The position numbers and the translations under genes were made by a program. A DNA stretch of 64,000 nt. It comes from Ophioderma brevispina (lineage: Eukaryota > Echinodermata > Ophiuroidea > Amphilepidida > Ophiodermatidae). This document shows positions 54,043 through 62,488 of the stretch, in pieces (position 1 is the stretch's first letter; each line of letters opens with the position of its first letter). The stretch spans positions 1-64,000 of the forward strand of contig JAMKCH010005481.1 in assembly GCA_023653785.1 (NCBI GenBank), written 5' to 3'. A model generated the notes under the pieces. That model was not told where the DNA came from. It did not search any database and saw only the letters and a list, made by a program, of their open reading frames with translations.

Positions 54043-54159
54043 CTGTCTATCATAGGCTTCATGTTCACTGAACATAATGGTTCCATCTTTAATAATTTTG
54101 TACTTCTGGTCTTCGGGGGTGCAGTCGCCGTATAAACCACCCTTTCTTGATATGTTCTC
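54043..54159 (-). CDS. DEG/ENaC ectodomain exon with LYGDC motif, GC donor
   Basis: Acceptor AAACACAG, phase 0. It encodes ENISRKGGLYGDCTPEDQ, then an EHEAYDRQ end, 39 codons without a stop. The (P/L)YG(D/N)C motif and the Y-S/D-RQ end that precedes the next conserved cysteine pair are typical of the family. The donor is CAG/GCAAGT, the strong consensus of GC-AG introns. The following exon with AC...SC was not found. Confidence 0.85.
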
Positions 54160-57092
54160 CTGTGTTTATAGAAAAATAACACCAAAACAAAAAACAAAAT
54201 ATAAAACAGTTTTCACTTTAAGTAACTTTAAAGAATACAACGATTGTAGACTGAGTTATAAATAAAATAGAGCACGATATTTCCAAAACAAGTGACAACA
54301 TACTCTTTTACCTTTTACATCTAAAAGCTTAATTTTGTCATAACAAATAGAAGTCACGTTATCTTGAACCTTCAGTTCCACTGAAGACCTTTATCTAATC
54401 ATGAAAAACGTCCAACTAAGAAATTTATCGGTATAACTACAGTAAACAATATTTTTGTTCACGAGAAACAGTATATTAAGCATTTTACAATGACATAATC
54501 AATTGTACCGTCTAAAACATTTATAATGCAAACCCCTGATCATTACGTATGACGCCATCTTATTCAGATTATTCTGGGCATGTTTTGGGAATATCAATCC
54601 ATCTGTGGACTATATAAGCACTTTGCAACACTGAATCAAATTACATTAACTTGAGGGTCCCTGACTCATTCTCCATTTAACATCTTGCACGACTCGGTTC
54701 TCAAGGGTACGTTTTAATGTCCTTCAATATGTTTATTTTGATCGTGTCCCCCATCGCTTTGTTGTAAGCTGAACTTCCTGAGGTCTACCAGCGGATTTGA
54801 TTGGTTATTCATGAAGTTATATGATTTCATTAGCCAATCAGAGACACTCTAAGAAAATATATATTGGGGTAAAGATTGCATCTGCTGGGCTAACGGTCAT
54901 TAAATGTCCACTCACATAACGCAAACCTATAGATGTAACTACACCAGGCTTGATTGTAACGCCTTCTTCTCCTGGTAAATGGTCTCACATCACGAGGATT
55001 TATAACAACACGTACACCGGCTTCTGGACCTGTGAGGCTTATGTACTCATTCTGTTGTAAATTAAGTATCATCCTCAAACCTGAAATAAAGCAAGGAAAA
55101 GCATCAGATCACAACCGCCGGTGCTTTAACCTTGTCCCACCCACCATTTTTTTTTCCAGATTCTCTAGTAAGGTGCTTTTATTGTCAATAGCTCAGTCAT
55201 TCAGACGTCCTATGACGTGTTACGTGATTAGAACTATGAATGCCCAAGATTTCGCACAAATTCAGAAACACAACATGAATGAGACATTATCCGGGAACAT
55301 TTTCTGTGAACTGACAAACTCGTAACCTGCACGGTTCAATCGCTGAATGCAAGTGCATTGTTAACGAACCCGTTTAAGATGTATTTCGGTTTTGCGCAAA
55401 TATTAATTTAGTGACAAACATTTAAAAGAGTTGTATACTACGTGAATCAAAAAAAAAAAAAATGTGCAAGGATTAAAGATGATCTTGACCATAATGCAAT
55501 CACTGTATCATAGATTTGTTGTTGTTTTTATAAAACACACCTAATATACTTCCAAATGTTGAAAAAAATGAAAGAAATCGATTAAATAATAAGCCAGATA
55601 TGACCAAATTTGTAAGAACACCCCTTTTTTCGCCATTCCTATGGGATTTACGCACATTAAACTTGTGTTTGTGAGAATGTACAATATCAATATCATGATG
55701 CCTTTGTCAACGTATTGCTACATTTTCTTGATTATTTCAATTATCGGATTAATCAATGAATTTATTTATACCAATGTGCCAACTGATATGACGAATCCAA
55801 ACACCAATTCGCCTGTTGCAGAGCAAGAAAACAAGATCTTCCCATTGTTTAGGATATTGCAAAGAGTTTAGTCTCTTTAATTGGCATAACTTGTATCTAT
55901 ACCTGGATTACAGTATTAGTGTTGAAAGGAGTTGTGTTTTCATTTACATATCAGGATTAATTGGGTGAGATTTTGTGTGAACAACATTAAATTCTTTTTG
56001 AAGATCAGTGAAGGAGATTATGGCTATTCATAGATCAATTAAAACAAAATAGCATGGGTCATCATTACTTTCTACTGCTATGCCCGTATATCGTACATTG
56101 ACGTGTTCTTGCTTTAACTGTGTAAATCCCATTGGAATGGAGGAAAAAGGGGTGTGCTTACAAAATTGGTCATATCTGGCTTATTGTTTAATCGTTTTCT
56201 TTCATTTTTTCAACATTTGGAAGTATATTAGATTTGCTTTATTAAAACAATAACAAATCTATGATTCAGTGACTTTATCAAGGTCAAGATCATCTGCAAC
56301 CGTTGCACATTTTTTTTTGATTCACGTAGTATATTCCAGTCATCTCGAGATCTAACTCGAGCAATTTGTTTATTTCTTTATCGAATAATCACACAGCACG
56401 CACACATACACACACATACACACACTTACACACACACACAACACACATACTCTCCTACACATTGATTTAGGTACCGGTAGCGAACCAGTTTTACATCAAC
56501 AATTGTGGTACCTGGACTGTGGTACCGCATTAAAAAAATAAATTGTGTGTATGTACGTTTTTAGATTGCTCTGTGTCAGTTCTATGCTTATCCCTGTTTT
56601 TACTCAGCCTGTTCACTTATAGACTAAAGCACACACATACGGCGCACACCGCACCAATTGATTTAAGTACCGGTCCCTATATTGGTGTGTGTATAGGAAT
56701 CTGTGTTATTAGGTGCGTTATGTAGGTGAACTTGATTAAACAGAGTGATGATCACAGATGATTATTTAATAGATGCCGAGCACATGTTCTGACTTCTGTG
56801 TAATTAATGTTCTTATTTATTTTTTTTTAATTTTTGTTTTGTATTATTACACAGCCCTTACACTTGCCGGACTAAGACCGCATGAAAATAGGACATTCGT
56901 AACTTTTCCCTTCTTGGTGAAAAAAAAAAAATTCCCCTATTCTACACTGTGTGCTATGGAAATTGGCAGTTTTGCTGACATGCAAACTTTATGACTGAAA
57001 GAGAAAAAAAATTATGACGTTATTCTGACGTAATTCTAGGTACCCCACGGTAGATAAGGGTTAAATAATCCCATTCAAATGAAATTTATATT

Positions 57093-57183
<91 letters not shown>

Positions 57184-58422
57184 CACACACACACACACAC
57201 AGAATTTTGTTAGGTTTCCGAAACCGAAACAATCTTTCCAAAAGGTCACATATTGACCGAGTTATGGCCGATTGAAAATTTGTACCACTTTTTCATTTTA
57301 TTCACGGAATGTAACCTTTTTAGTTGTCTTTAGACAATACACCTTCTCCAAGCACATTCTTTTATTTTTTATTTCTTTTGTTTTTGCGACAAAGGTCAGT
57401 TCTGATATTGAAAAGGTTACTTTTAATTATTACAAATTCCAAGATCTTGCTTCATTCCTCTTTACTGCGCTGCTTTGCCCTCCACTTCCCATTTTTAGAC
57501 ACCCGGTACAATGGGGCAGTTTTTCGTGTTAACACTTAAAGTCTGACTCAGAGATTTCAAAATATACATTTTTTTGTGTAATATTTAAAAATAGTCACCT
57601 AGAACTAAAGATAGCTACCTCCAATACACAATTTCAAAGCAAATTTTGAGATGAATTGGATATTTCGTTTTGATGCAGTAAACATTTATGTAGAGTATTG
57701 CGTGCCATAGGATACTGTGTATAACAAAAATTCCGGATCCGGAATTTTATAATAAAGTTGTGATTTTCTATAATATGAAGGACTTCGATTTGAGCTTAGC
57801 TATTTCACACAGTGATTAGTATATGGACAAGCATTGTGTACATGCAAAAAAACACAATTTGTTTGAAAATTAAGGGCGCCCTCCTCGAGAAATCTCTGAG
57901 TCAGCCTTTAACTCTATAAGGTCTCGTGCACTCCCCTTGGTGTATATGGGGGGGGGGGTTCATATGGACCCTCCTCTGAAAACAATTTCGCTGTTGTTGT
58001 TGTTGTCGTTTTTGTTTTTGATGGTGTCCGAAAACGGAAATCCACTTTCCCGAAGGACGTTTTCGAAAAAACAAATTCTCATAATATGAGAACATATGAA
58101 ATACATTTACATTGCTGAAATAAAAATTGAAATTGAAATTTCTCTAGTACGATTTAAGGATCAAAACAAGTTTTGAATAGCGCCACCAAAATGCTTGTTT
58201 ATGCTAATCAGCGTAAATTGTGCAAAGTAATTTAGCGTTAAAACATGCCACGCGAAAACAAAATGCTGGGTTCACATAGACCCTCTTATAGACTTAAGTG
58301 TTAAGATTACCGTAATTGGGTCCAGTTTTGGTTGAGTAAACATCCTTTCCACCTGGATTATAGTTGAATGTGTAACAATTACCGAAGTCATCCGTTTCGA
58401 AAGTTGTAAAATTTCTAATATA

Positions 58423-58458
<36 letters not shown>

Positions 58459-61400
58459 CAACTCCTAAAATCGTGTTAGGGCGAAAATATACATATTCAT
58501 TAGGTTATAATGAGTTGTGCGACAGGCTGTCTATAGCAAAATCCTCAGCTCGTGGTACAAAATTTGGAAATTTGCACACATTTGCATAAATTAATCGCCT
58601 CTATTATTAATTATCGGAATAAAACACATCATTATCATACTTCTCAGAGGCCACAACGGGCGTGTTATCACGTCAGGCAATGCCCTCTTACTTTCCTTAT
58701 GATGAAGTCAGGGATGTTTGATAGTTAAATGTTAATGCACACATTGGTTATATTTGCAAAAAAAAAAATAGGCATACATGAAATAATACAGCTGCGTTTA
58801 ATGCGGATATGTTCCTGTTACTTTATTTACTTGATTTGATAACAAAAAAGAAAGAAATATTAGGCATGGAGAAGAGAGAATAAATGAGTTGTTTACAAAA
58901 CATAAGAGATAACATACTCTTCAGTACATTGGCTTTCATCATATGTACATTCCAAGACAAAATCTTTAAATTGATGACCATATTCTCTGATTTCTTCACG
59001 AGATAGGTAGAGCACATCTAATAAATCTTGATAATCGGGAAATTCACTGAAAGTAAAGAAGCTTTTCCAATCAACAGGATCCTCGCCCTTAAAAGAGAAA
59101 AAGGTATTTTTTTTAGATATTGTTATTACTATACAAGCTTGAACAAGTGTAAAGGGATCTCCAACATGTGCTGCATTCATTATTGTTTTATACACCACAT
59201 TCAATAACGATGGGAGCGATACAACTAAAATATCTTTGAAGAGGCCCGTTAGGGATAATCATTCTTCTTGATTGGTTTGTAATCTCAACAATAGAGTGGA
59301 AAAGACAAAGGCAAAATTCAATCTGAACGCGAACAGTCTAAATCAGCCCAAGATAGTTCAAGAAAAATCATGTGATAGACTGGGATAATGCTTTTCTTGA
59401 CAACGTTATATGTTTCTCGTCGCATTGTGTTATCAGTGTTGCATTTCCCCAGTGTTCCATTGTCTGATCGACCGATTGTTCTGCAATAATTATACGAAAA
59501 CCAATCGATGGAAGAAACCATGCATCTAAAAAGATTCATGCATTCCTAACGAACAAGTCTCCCGATGACCCCTGTTAATAATTGCTTAGGAAAAGAGATA
59601 TTTGAGTCCGAGTGTGGCATCAATAGTTGTTGTTGTTGTGCTCACTCGCTAAGTGTGACGAACGTAAAATACTCGCGCGTCTTATAAATATGCATATGGA
59701 TTTTCAAACTGTAAATTCAAACTGATCCAGACCGTTGTGGATTTTTGAAAACCCCGCGAAACTAGGAAAAATAAAGGCTTTTTATTCAAAATCCTCTCGG
59801 GGAACCAGTTGGTTCGCCTAGATGTTTTACTTAAAAATTGATAATCTTCCCTCTCATACCAAATTTACGTTGGTTCAGCGAGCAGAAAAAATGCAATTCA
59901 TCAGGCAAATATCCCTAAATTTCCATCTTGGCCCATTGACTTACGTGAAGGCCGCAACCTCTAAATCACAAATTTAATATCGAACATCATTTGTCCCCCC
60001 ATGATCCTCTTCTAGCTGTTAGTTAGCCCTCTATCGGTGGGAATACACCAGTCAAGAAGAAGGACCATCCATCATTCTGGGGATGCCTGTTGATCAGGAC
60101 AGGCGAAACGTTCAATCATGTAAGTCATTTTGGTTTTGTTACAATATTTTTCCTAACAGCTAAATATTTGTGGATGGCGGTTCATGTCGGTATAACCGTG
60201 TTTCATTATTTAGAAATGAAATCGGCCGAAGCCGGTGAGCAGCCTTCGATTAATTTTTTGAAGCCATCCCTTTGAGAATTTGAAATTCAAATTGCAAAGC
60301 ATTATCTCTTCTTTCTTACCTTAACGCGATTGAACAGATTTGGCTTATAATAATTTTTGGCAAATCATCAAAAACTTCAGGATCGTTATAGAGGTCCCAG
60401 TAGTTTTCATACCAATTCGGATTCTTGAATGGATCTGGGAGTTCCTGGAGTTCTCTGTCTGCCAATAAAATTAAAGAGTGAAGCAACATCAACAAAAATA
60501 ATAATATAATAATGATAATTCGTTTGACTGGCTGAGTATCCCTTAAATCTCTAAATGCAATGTGTTGCCACTTTTTACGTCCAACTAGGTACTCGTGTGC
60601 AGGGCCTACTTTGTTCCATTTAGTACAAAAGTCCATTTTCCGTGATTTCCGTGAAATCAATATAAATCCTTAACACTTAAGTGGCCAAGGGGTTATGGGA
60701 CCCCCCTCCCCAAGGAACCCACTTTCCCTACGGAATTTTTGCACGAAATTTACACCACGTGTGAAGGGTCATAAGATAACCACAAATCAATAAAAATTAA
60801 TTTGGTCGAAAATTTGGCGAAAAGACGGAAAATTTAAATGAGCCTTACGCTTGCACCAAACGTTTTGAACACTTATTTTATGTTGATATTTACTCTAGTA
60901 GACCCAAATTACATTAACACAAAACCTGCAGTATTAGGGAATCCTGTATTGTTACGGGTGTTGCAAAATACACGTCATTTTCTCACAGAGTTTGTATAGT
61001 AACGTTTTAACAACGTCCACGATGAAATTGTTTGTTTTCAGCACATAAAGGGTTAATTACTTTAATGTTACTAATAATTGTTTACTTACACGTATGTGTG
61101 AACATATATCAGGAAAAAAATTGTTTTGGTTCGTTGATTTTTTGAAAATATTCTCAGATGACCTCCGTTAGTGCCCAGTGGGACCCCAACTAATTAAGCC
61201 ATTAACGGCTTGGCCGATTGTAATTATTTTTGGTATGAAAAGAAGCGCATTTAAATGTCAGACAATTAAAAAAAAAAACGGCCAGCGCGAAAACACATTT
61301 TGGGGTCCATAGGAACGCCCTATTTGGTCCCTTAAGTGTTATCAAAACAATCAGAATTTAACAAACTAGCAGAGAGTAAAGACAACATACCAATCATCTT

Positions 61401-62488
61401 ACCCTATGCAGGAAAAAGAAAAATCTTGTTATTTTGAGAAAAAAACAATCTCCCCACACGTTGGAGTCTGAATCAGGAATGCCATACAACATATGACTGT
61501 ATTACAGCAGCCCAGCTCGGTTGTCACAAAAGAATGGACAATGCGCTCTCTGGTAGACAGATTTATCAAGGTATTCCCGAATACGCCCATTCTTCTTGAT
61601 CGCGTTTATTGCAGAAGGAGCGAAAAAAATTCAAATCATCAAAGCAAACATCTATTTGGATATTAAAGACGGTATAAGACCGGCTATAATCGCATTTGGC
61701 TTTGACTGAAACTCTAACATTCTACTTTAGGAGGGTCATAGAGTGCCAAATTGTGTAAACACGTATTTCAATAGACCGTATTCAATAGCCAGCCATGTTG
61801 GTGGACAAGATAGACACATTCCAGTACTAGAATACATTCACCTGTCAATGATCCCTGTGCAATCGCTAAAGATGGATCGATTGACAGGTGAATGTATTGT
61901 AGTCCTGGAATGTATGCATCTTGTCCACCAACATGGCTGGTGGCTGACGTCATATTGAATACGGTCTATAGACCAGTTATCATCCTACGTCACTTCTTTT
62001 GTTGCCTGCGAATGCATTCCTGCGAATCTTTATGGCCCATAGTATTAAAACTCTAACAGATACAATTGCCCAGTGTGTAACAGTCAGGCCGACCTATTTC
62101 AAGATACCAGGCCCTAACATGTTTACAAACATTGCTGTTAACTGGTCTATACGGAATAAATCGCAATCTCATCATAGTGCGCAGTTCACTCTCCGTAGAA
62201 AAACGTTTTACACAATTTGGCACTCGCCAGTGGTGGAAATAGTTACCTGGCCATTTGGTTTAAAGCACGATCTAAATTTCATTACAATTAGAGAAAAAAA
62301 TGAAAGAAATATAGCCTGTAAGTGTAATGTCTTGGGTAATCATACAACGACGAGGAGTGCATTTCACTTACCAAATGTGCAATTGTTTTCGTCCATATTG
62401 TTGCCACAATCATTTACGGTATCACATCGGTAGTAACGAGGTATGCAAATGGGTCGTTCTGGGCATAACCAATAATTTGGCGGGCATG
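54043..62488 (-). CDS. DEG/ENaC channel with LDL-receptor class A module, partial gene
   Basis: Six minus-strand exons (62488-62372, 60458-60320, 59087-58918, 58414-58311, 55080-54916, 54159-54043) join in consistent phases (1-1, 1-0, 0-2, 2-1, 1-0, 0-0) into about 250 residues. Exons 2-6 are the extracellular domain of a DEG/ENaC (amiloride-sensitive) channel, a family of trimeric sodium channels gated by acid, peptides or force. Marks: YGHQFKDFVLECTYDESQC, then DFGNCYTFN, then LRMILNLQQNEY and GVRVVINP, then LYGDC. The first exon is a complete LDLa domain. Missing are the cytosolic start, membrane helix 1 (upstream) and the later cysteine-rich region plus membrane helix 2. Two exons each carry a one-base indel. 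Introns hold at least five foldback elements. The ligand cannot be predicted. Confidence 0.85.
54916..55080 (-). CDS. DEG/ENaC palm/beta-ball exon, one-base insertion
   Basis: Acceptor TTATTTCAG, donor TAT/GTGAGT, phase 1 to 0. It encodes GLRMILNLQQNEYISLTGPE, then AGVRVVINPRDVRPF. The GL.(L)xLNxQQxEY and GVRVVIxxxxxxPFP segments are diagnostic of DEG/ENaC ectodomains. An extra base at 54976 shifts the frame after RPF. Removing it gives PGEEGVTIKPGVVTSIGLRY in frame to the donor, matching the family's PFPxEEGxxxxPG pattern. Confidence 0.9.
55434..56333. mobile_element. Foldback element in a channel-gene intron
   Basis: About 200-base arms (55434-55635 and 56145-56333) pair almost throughout, from TATACTACGTGAATC at the outside to AACACCCCTTTTTT at the inside. 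The spacer of about 510 bases has a 76-codon plus-strand open frame starting with a hydrophobic segment (see findings). Non-autonomous and in intron. Confidence 0.85.
56394..56455 (+). repeat. (CA)n microsatellite
   Basis: Interrupted CA repeat with occasional CATA units. The sequence after it (TTGATTTAGGTACCGGT) recurs at 56657. Confidence 0.85.
56925..57055 (+). repeat. Fragment of inverted-repeat family A
   Basis: The block from CTATTCTACACTGTGTGCTA through TGACGTAATTCTAGG matches the middle of the copy at 34610-35602 (about 35171-35255). Termini are absent. Confidence 0.75.
57095..57201 (+). repeat. 89-base T homopolymer followed by (CA)n
   Basis: T-run at 57095-57183, then CA repeats to about 57201. 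The length is unlikely to be reliable. It may be the poly-A end of a minus-oriented retroelement or a polymerase/assembly artefact. Confidence 0.9.
57202..57510 (+). mobile_element. Half of the foldback family seen at 30781-31910
   Basis: Matches 30885-31150 closely in the same orientation (GTTATG(G/T)CCGATTGAAAAT, TCCAAGCACATTC, GAAATTCCAAGATCTTG-like). It ends TTTTTAGACACCCGG, the complement of the left terminus of the other copy. The second arm is missing, cut at the homopolymer. Confidence 0.8.
57538..57909. mobile_element. 372-bp inverted-repeat element
   Basis: Ends are AAAGTCTGACTCAGAGATTTC and its near-perfect complement (GAAATCTCTGAGTCAGCCTTT). It is non-coding. A partial inverted relative lies at 43005-43175. 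It lies in an intron of the channel gene. Confidence 0.85.
58311..58414 (-). CDS. DEG/ENaC ectodomain exon with FGNCYTFN motif
   Basis: Acceptor TATTAG, donor G/GTAATC, phase 2 to 1. It encodes NFTTFETDDFGNCYTFNYNP, then GGKDVYS...GPNY. The GNCYTFN motif is among the most conserved in DEG/ENaC proteins, and GPxYG before the next exon's GL is also usual. NFT is a possible glycosylation site. The acceptor's upstream tract is an (ATT)n microsatellite instead of a normal pyrimidine tract. Confidence 0.93.
58424..58456 (+). repeat. (AAT)n microsatellite at a splice acceptor
   Basis: Eleven or so AAT units followed by AAC units. On the gene's strand this is (ATT)n immediately upstream of the acceptor of the exon at 58311-58414. 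Confidence 0.9.
58918..59087 (-). CDS. DEG/ENaC ectodomain exon with GHQ-LECT motif
   Basis: Acceptor TCTTTTAAG, donor GA/GTATGT, phase 0 to 2. It encodes FFTFSEFPDYQDLLDVLYLS, then REEIREYGHQFKDFVLECTYDESQC. The GH-x-xxDFxLECxxDxxxC pattern is a hallmark of the DEG/ENaC ectodomain finger region, upstream of the FGNCYTFN motif that opens the next exon. The frame is intact through all 56 codons. Confidence 0.9.
59088..60319 (-). other. Channel-gene intron, nothing recognised
   Basis: The minus-strand open frame at 59318-59539 has no recognisable domain and no coherent splice context. A short GTT run lies near 59625. Confidence 0.4.
60320..60458 (-). CDS. DEG/ENaC ectodomain exon, one-base deletion
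   Basis: Acceptor TTGGCAG, donor AAG/GTAAGA. It encodes an aromatic, acidic segment (PDPFKNPNWYENYWDLYNDP, then VFDDLPK). The frame then slips by one base in a run of five A (60354-60358 on the plus strand): with one more A it continues NYYKPNLFNRVK to the donor and joins the next exon's GEDPVDWK. Without the correction the frame would still be open but would lose phase with the next exon. This segment probably lies in the finger region after the first membrane helix. It shows less family resemblance than the later exons. Confidence 0.65.
60673..61339. mobile_element. TA-flanked inverted-repeat element, family D copy 2
   Basis: Starts ACACTTAAGTG and ends CCTTAAGTGT with TA on each side. Its interior aligns with 16648-17464 (GCACGAAATTTACACCAC, GATGAAATTGTTTGTTTTC, CAGCACATAAAGGGTTA) in the same orientation. 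It lies between the LDLa exon and the first channel exon. Confidence 0.9.
61741..62225. mobile_element. Foldback element, family G copy 2, with inner palindrome
   Basis: Outer inverted repeats begin GAGTGCCAAATTGTGTAAA at 61741 and end CACAATTTGGCACTC at 62225. Inside, 61782-61975 is a second long palindrome: arms around GACCGTATTCAATA, AGCCAGCCATGTTGGTGGAC and ACATTCACCTGTCAATG pair around a ~35-base loop. Same family as 24562-24687. It lies about 150 bases from the LDLa exon. Confidence 0.85.
62372..62488 (-). CDS. LDL-receptor class A exon
   Basis: Acceptor CTTTCAG, donor G/GTAAGTG. The 117 bases encode one complete LDLa domain with six cysteines at exon residues 1, 8, 14, 21, 27 and 36, and the acidic calcium-binding cluster (CDTVNDCGNNMDENNC). 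The exon is symmetric phase 1-1, the usual form of this module as an exon-shuffled unit. Its terminal split G joins AC of the next exon to give Asp, continuing in frame into the channel ectodomain 1.9 kb further along the strand. LDLa domains bind ligands or partner proteins outside the cell. It could instead end a separate upstream gene, but the phase match and strand favour one gene. Confidence 0.8.

Follow-up and report, generated by a model that had tools for sequence, protein, structure and literature searches.

An LDLa exon ahead of DEG/ENaC channel exons

The window analysed here (bases 1-64000 of C5480, a 127,288-base contig in the 2.5-Gb draft genome of the brittle star Ophioderma brevispina) carries on its minus strand an exon for an LDL-receptor class A (LDLa) domain and, downstream of it, exons for the ectodomain of a DEG/ENaC ion channel. 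An earlier reading of the same DNA, the original prediction, had proposed that the two are parts of a single channel. Comparison with homologues indicates that they do belong to one gene, and that the window LDLa closes an array in which kringle and SRCR domains also occur. The window contains only a piece of that gene, probably the middle and 3' part, which would encode a DEG/ENaC subunit with a mosaic insert.

The LDLa exon (62488-62372, minus strand; CIPRYYRCDTVNDCGNNMDENNC) has AG/GT borders, the symmetric phase 1-1, six cysteines and acidic calcium-site residues, the CD..DC....DE pattern being one that we take to be calcium-binding. In the joined translation of the window exons it matches Pfam Ldl_recept_a (PF00057) with 30.4 bits (cut-off 24.1). 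It corresponds to the last LDLa ahead of the finger domain in relatives and is 64% identical to residues 287-325 of P0001, a predicted protein of Amphiura filiformis. As had been proposed, the split codon G+AC keeps the phase across the junction with exon 60458-60320. The further claim that all later junctions are in phase held for the splice phases at the exon borders, but the frame shifts inside two of the exons as assembled (60458-60320 and 55080-54916). Against ASC (PF00858) the joined window exons score 72.3 bits (cut-off 23.6), in a join that included an open stretch (59482-59381) later rejected as an exon because P0001 has nothing at that place.

The channel exons follow the LDLa on the same strand and in family order, all of them matching P0001. 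The finger exon (DPFKNPNWYENY..., 60458-60320), one of the two with a shifted frame, matches residues 327-374 in two frames (E = 9e-4). Next come the 'GEDPVDW' exon of the finger and ectodomain (GEDPVDWKSFFTFSEF..., 59087-58918), which is 74% identical to residues 366-431 and gives a further match with E = 1.1e-26, and an ectodomain exon with the FGNCYTFN motif (58414-58311), 83% identical to residues 431-466. The 'NEYISL' palm exon (GLRMILNLQQNEYISLTG..., 55080-54916), the other with an internal frameshift, and the 'ENISRKGG' ectodomain exon (ENISRKGGLYGDC..., 54159-54043), which has a GC-type splice donor, complete the series. The extent originally given to the feature, 54043-62488, takes in real exons and not the whole gene, of which later matches lie at 50.8-45.1 kb and upstream modules at 97.3-64.9 kb.

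The later matches (cysteine-rich, 'HLLRYIH', 'LNYATT' and second membrane helix, TM2) are weaker. They comprise, again on the minus strand, a cysteine-rich exon (CKQLMYYL; 50783-50604) with a weak match (hidden Markov model (HMM) E = 0.003, homologue E = 2.8) whose order agrees with paralogous contig C33502; an exon QPHLLRYIHSLR...NDRTTVE (48832-48758; homologue E = 1.4e-4, HMM E = 1.9e-5); an exon LNYATTRE.AAYSV ahead of TM2 (46144-46070), weakly matched (P0002 E = 0.52, HMM E = 0.27); and the TM2 exon (SDVGGKTG..., 45205-45086), a weak, broken match (E = 2.1) with no HMM counterpart, the position of which agrees with the order. Beyond the window, the contig has matches to kringle (E = 3e-4) and SRCR (E = 1e-12) between 97.3 and 64.9 kb, and to two further, degraded LDLa at 66.2-64.9 kb (E = 7e-4 and 0.5, the second being weak). 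The window LDLa directly precedes the finger exon; the upstream side of the array was not found on this contig.

An intact second LDLa exon, also of phase 1-1, lies on the same contig 57 kb upstream of the window LDLa (119629-119524, minus strand; L014). As the direct neighbour of the window LDLa it was rejected, since P0001 has two other LDLa there, namely those degraded at 66.2-64.9 kb; it matches LDLa of Patiria P0019 best and could belong, as an upstream LDLa, to the same gene. The intron between the LDLa and finger exons holds an inverted repeat (61789-61940; 61-nt arms, 92% complementary, and a 30-nt loop) resembling a miniature inverted-repeat transposable element.

Module-bearing channels in hemichordates and echinoderms

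The best homologue of the joined window exons is P0001 (52% identity, E = 1.7e-95), in which SRCR, LDLa and channel are combined in one protein. The query of this first protein search was a composite that also held the stretch 59482-59381, the LDLa at 119.6 kb and, at the C-terminus, filler taken from another ASC gene (L001); scoring covered its residues 1-325 alone, and the coverage figure of 95% refers to the composite. Four proteins were retrieved at E <= 0.001: two from Amphiura (SRCR, LDLa and ASC), one from Ptychodera (PAN, LDLa and ASC) and mammalian LRP3, which has CUB and LDLa and lacks ASC. Repeat searches with an alignment of the three ASC-bearing matches (13 proteins) and with an eight-protein alignment (68 proteins) brought the set to 79 distinct proteins.

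A search for proteins with both Ldl_recept_a and ASC had been suggested as a check, and the two occur together, by precomputed Pfam annotation, in 47 of the 79, a number that includes partial models and possible isoforms. Apart from one crustacean protein, the remaining 46 are from hemichordates and echinoderms (by name Saccoglossus, Ptychodera, Glandiceps, Patiria, Asterias, Acanthaster, Amphiura and Anneissia). Further modules found in them are SRCR, kringle, CUB, PAN, F5/8C, TSP1 and HYR. In the channel part, P0001 scores 216 bits against ASC, the GxS filter reads GFS in P0001, P0002, P0007 and P0028, an HG motif stands before the first membrane helix (TM1) in P0007 and P0028, and the predicted structure of a relative has two helices and a palm and finger in an ASIC/ENaC-type fold.

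A tree was built from those 57 of the 79 proteins that had a long enough match, 22 being left out. In it, 41 LDLa-ASC rows form one group together with P0046, a partial model from Saccoglossus in which no LDLa is annotated. Support for this group is 91/98, a bootstrap value (91) that does not reach the level starred by the program. The outgroup is thin, consisting only of what the searches returned and including several long branches. P0001 falls inside the 42-row group; the window sequence itself was not a row of the tree. The architecture is not unique to the window and belongs to a family in hemichordates and echinoderms.

The LDLa-ASC matches come from sea stars, a brittle star, a crinoid and acorn worms, and no protein named as from a sea urchin or sea cucumber is among them, in searches that were not dedicated to these groups; a loss is possible. 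The crustacean protein (P0055, from the crab Petrolisthes manimaculis; 22% identity to P0007) could be an independent fusion, a distant relative or a model error. In two Amphiura proteins (P0026 and P0051) the insert carries HYR domains and lacks an annotated SRCR, which shows that the non-LDLa modules vary within one species. The genome of O. brevispina gives at least 66 exon-level ASC matches, a large DEG/ENaC set.

Of the two topologies allowed by the original prediction, an LDLa lying past membrane helix 1 and ahead of the finger or an unusual N-terminus, relatives with a first helix show the first. We built a profile from TM1 and the stretch with the FPxVTxC motif behind it (the first strand), which matches 31 of the 47 LDLa-ASC proteins, 28 of them over TM1 itself. 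Every LDLa core follows this match (31/31 proteins) and precedes the finger wherever a finger landmark is present (30/30). The same order is found on the plus strand of paralogous contig C61054, where a TM1 exon ends at 64605 and the first-strand exon (FPSVTVCNTNKLRRSK) lies at 76.3 kb, followed by LDLa at 76.9, 78.1, 81.8, 83.0, 88.8 and 90.2 kb, kringle at 94.3 kb, SRCR at 95.3 kb, LDLa at 96.5, 97.05 and 100.1 kb, the finger at 101.8 kb and two more ectodomain exons; its last LDLa exon is of phase 1-1, as in the window. Two other contigs (C6524 and C65455) likewise carry first-strand exons ahead of SRCR and finger exons, on the correct strand. By the order in relatives and the exon order of C61054, the window LDLa would lie where that first topology puts it. 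A first-helix exon between 60458 and 62372, which would have spoken against the fusion, was not seen in an HMM search of the contig.

State of the window copy and alternative explanations

We regard the locus as probably a DEG/ENaC subunit gene with a mosaic module insert, the frameshifts of the window copy being likelier noise than true lesions. Several observations weigh against this. As assembled, the window copy cannot be read through, there being frame changes or stops in the kringle, SRCR, two LDLa, finger, 55-kb ('NEY') and TM2 stretches. Neither TM1 nor the first strand was detected on contig C5480 (HMM search of open stretches of at least 20 residues, best E = 1.3), which may stop short of them. 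Contig C61054 has blemishes of its own: stops in the kringle stretch, a degraded extra LDLa at 79.6 kb, another TM1-like piece, interrupted by stops, at 69.5 kb and a degraded 'NEY' exon at 120.0 kb; the 'ENIS' exon gives a short match, to its start, at 121.4 kb, and between there and the contig end no further exon was found.

That the window copy is a decaying pseudogene with its introns kept, working members lying elsewhere in the genome, is a real possibility, if not a likely one. A second copy of the locus (C58568, 15.8 kb, together with C45226), either an allele or a recent duplicate, bears on this. Near-perfect stretches between the two copies (146/148, 150/151 and 197/201 columns) stand beside poor ones with many short gaps (151/172, 205/234, 327/352 and 222/246 columns). 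Comparison of window segments 55433-53863, 59205-58215 and 61252-60168 with L018 and L057 likewise has stretches up to 98-100% identical alternating with others rich in 1-3-base indels. Noisy blocks contain 244 short indels vs 212 substitutions in 3282 aligned bases (1.15 per substitution), clean ones 22 vs 51 in 1979 bases (0.43 per substitution); the blocks were sorted by total differences, so that the indel share alone is informative. Most of the lesions seen occur in one copy and not in the other: SRCR and kringle, broken in the window, are open in C45226, and 'GEDPVDW', broken in C58568, is open in the window. This patchiness suggests unpolished long reads rather than decay, and on that comparison the frameshifts of the window copy are probably draft-assembly noise. 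In favour of decay, each copy has one lesion in a clean patch: at 55.1-53.9 kb, where the two match well, the window has a one-base frame change and the second copy, which has lesions of its own, a stop codon. Decay would also fit the finger exon, which is broken in the window, in C58568 and in paralogue C33502, where a frame change and a stop are found; these lesions of C33502 raised our estimate for a pseudogene and lowered that for the preferred reading. C33502 is open in eleven stretches (a kringle piece, SRCR, three LDLa, GEET, FGN, NEY, Cys, HLLRY and DNL), its 'ENIS' and TM1 exons not having been found on the contig, and three exons of locus L019 (C54196), namely finger, 'GEDPVDW' and 'YGNCYTFN', align unbroken.

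A single-pass receptor without TM1, its module array and channel ectodomain anchored by TM2 alone, seems very unlikely. It would agree with the 16 of 47 LDLa-ASC relatives, P0001 and P0002 among them, that have no TM1 match as annotated (a further point against a two-helix subunit) and with the ASC match beginning only at residues 111-140 in P0001, P0002, P0003, P0005 and P0008. However, the TM1/first-strand match of the other 31 lies ahead of the array, C61054 has both exons upstream, and the short models are explicable by 5' exons missed behind long introns. Long introns would also allow the LDLa exon to end one gene and the channel exons to begin another, but such a chance neighbourhood is extremely improbable, being contradicted by homologues that hold LDLa and finger in one chain: the same LDLa (64-68% identity) directly precedes the same finger sequence in single Amphiura proteins, and an LDLa also precedes the finger exon on C33502 and C61054. 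Because homologues carry the same combination, we exclude a join of LDLa and channel by chance, and by the same homology the two would share one transcript.

Furin-type motifs and comparison with known channels

Basic clusters stand behind the SRCR domain in P0001 and P0002. Between the TM1/first strand (or residue 1 where neither was found) and the finger, the motif R-X-K/R-R occurs 25 times, spread over 15 of 45 proteins and with six copies in P0002 alone; 200 shuffles gave 5.2 on average and at most 12. The channel part behind the insert has five, where shuffling gave 2.5 on average and at most 8. A furin-type motif lies 3-20 residues past the SRCR end in all eight proteins with an annotated SRCR, while 4.6% of all 25-residue windows in these proteins contain it, the distances having been counted after the motifs were already listed and the idea having come from two of the eight, which makes this a description and not a blind test. 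A furin-type motif behind SRCR is conserved in the echinoderm members, and cleavage there is predicted. On the window contig the 6 kb that directly follow SRCR contain three R-X-K/R-R motifs, and no evident exon includes any of them. Motifs behind SRCR at six paralogue loci were given no weight, being picked by eye from all-frame scans with chance hits.

From the gene order in relatives and the paralogue, the predicted fold and this motif, we infer a chain running from a cytoplasmic N-terminus through TM1, the first palm strands (FPxVTxC), the LDLa array, finger and palm to TM2, the companions of LDLa being kringle and SRCR in echinoderms and CUB, PAN, F5/8C, TSP1, HYR or kringle in other members. 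Three such two-helix subunits would form a sodium-permeable cation pore, with a rod of calcium-bound modules jutting from each finger. A furin cut behind SRCR during transport would leave a two-part subunit held by the palm, and could prime gating as in ENaC. Matrix, a secreted ligand, a partner protein or a foreign surface on the modules might then move the finger and shift gating; the original prediction had likewise suggested that a bound ligand or partner could gate or tether the channel. Tentatively, hemichordates and echinoderms could have evolved a large receptor-channel family with interchangeable finger modules and a furin cut behind SRCR, in which foreign surfaces, matrix or lipoproteins, once bound to the array, would gate a sodium current directly, although in this full form we find the proposal doubtful.

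The closest relatives are NCBI predictions with the LDLa array before the finger (for example Amphiura P0001 and P0002, Patiria P0021, Asterias P0025, Saccoglossus P0007 and Ptychodera P0006). Their non-LDLa modules vary by lineage (SRCR, kringle, CUB, PAN, F5/8C, TSP1, HYR), and their labels are only uncharacterized, degenerin-like, ASIC-like, ENaC-like or LRP2-like. Among the matches listed in full-text searches of open-licence papers, no description of LDLa-bearing DEG/ENaC channels was found. The main text of three DEG/ENaC papers has no word starting 'LDL' (PMC10507113, PMC9949801, PMC9822975). A fourth paper describes starfish coelomocytes that carry LDL-receptor-related and SRCR proteins, and the term 'sodium channel' does not occur in it (PMC13409769). 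The parts are thus already known, because the member proteins are public predictions, and the family is apparently undescribed in the literature searched.

ASIC1 and the molluscan and annelid FaNaC share with this family the two helices and the palm/finger fold, and with the members named above the GxS filter (GFS) or the HG motif. To our knowledge these channels have no extracellular modules and are gated by protons or peptides. ENaC, the gating of which is controlled by proteolytic cleavage, likewise differs in having no LDLa/SRCR/kringle array, but ENaC gamma has a furin-type motif of its own in the same region as the SRCR-linked one (P0012: RKRR at 140, between FPxVTxC at 94 and YGNC at 286). 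Neto and LEV-10 are CUB and LDLa auxiliary proteins of neurotransmitter receptors; they too set LDLa (and CUB, as in some relatives here) outside the membrane beside an ion channel, but as separate subunits, whereas the present family has its modules within the channel chain. Gating by proteolysis in ENaC and by tethers in degenerins has mostly been studied in vertebrates and nematodes. With swappable receptor modules and an echinoderm-conserved furin-type motif placed in the finger region that holds the cleavage motif of ENaC gamma, this family would make it possible to test directly whether ligand or force generally acts through the finger as an input port, and would be a case of a receptor and a channel united in a single chain.
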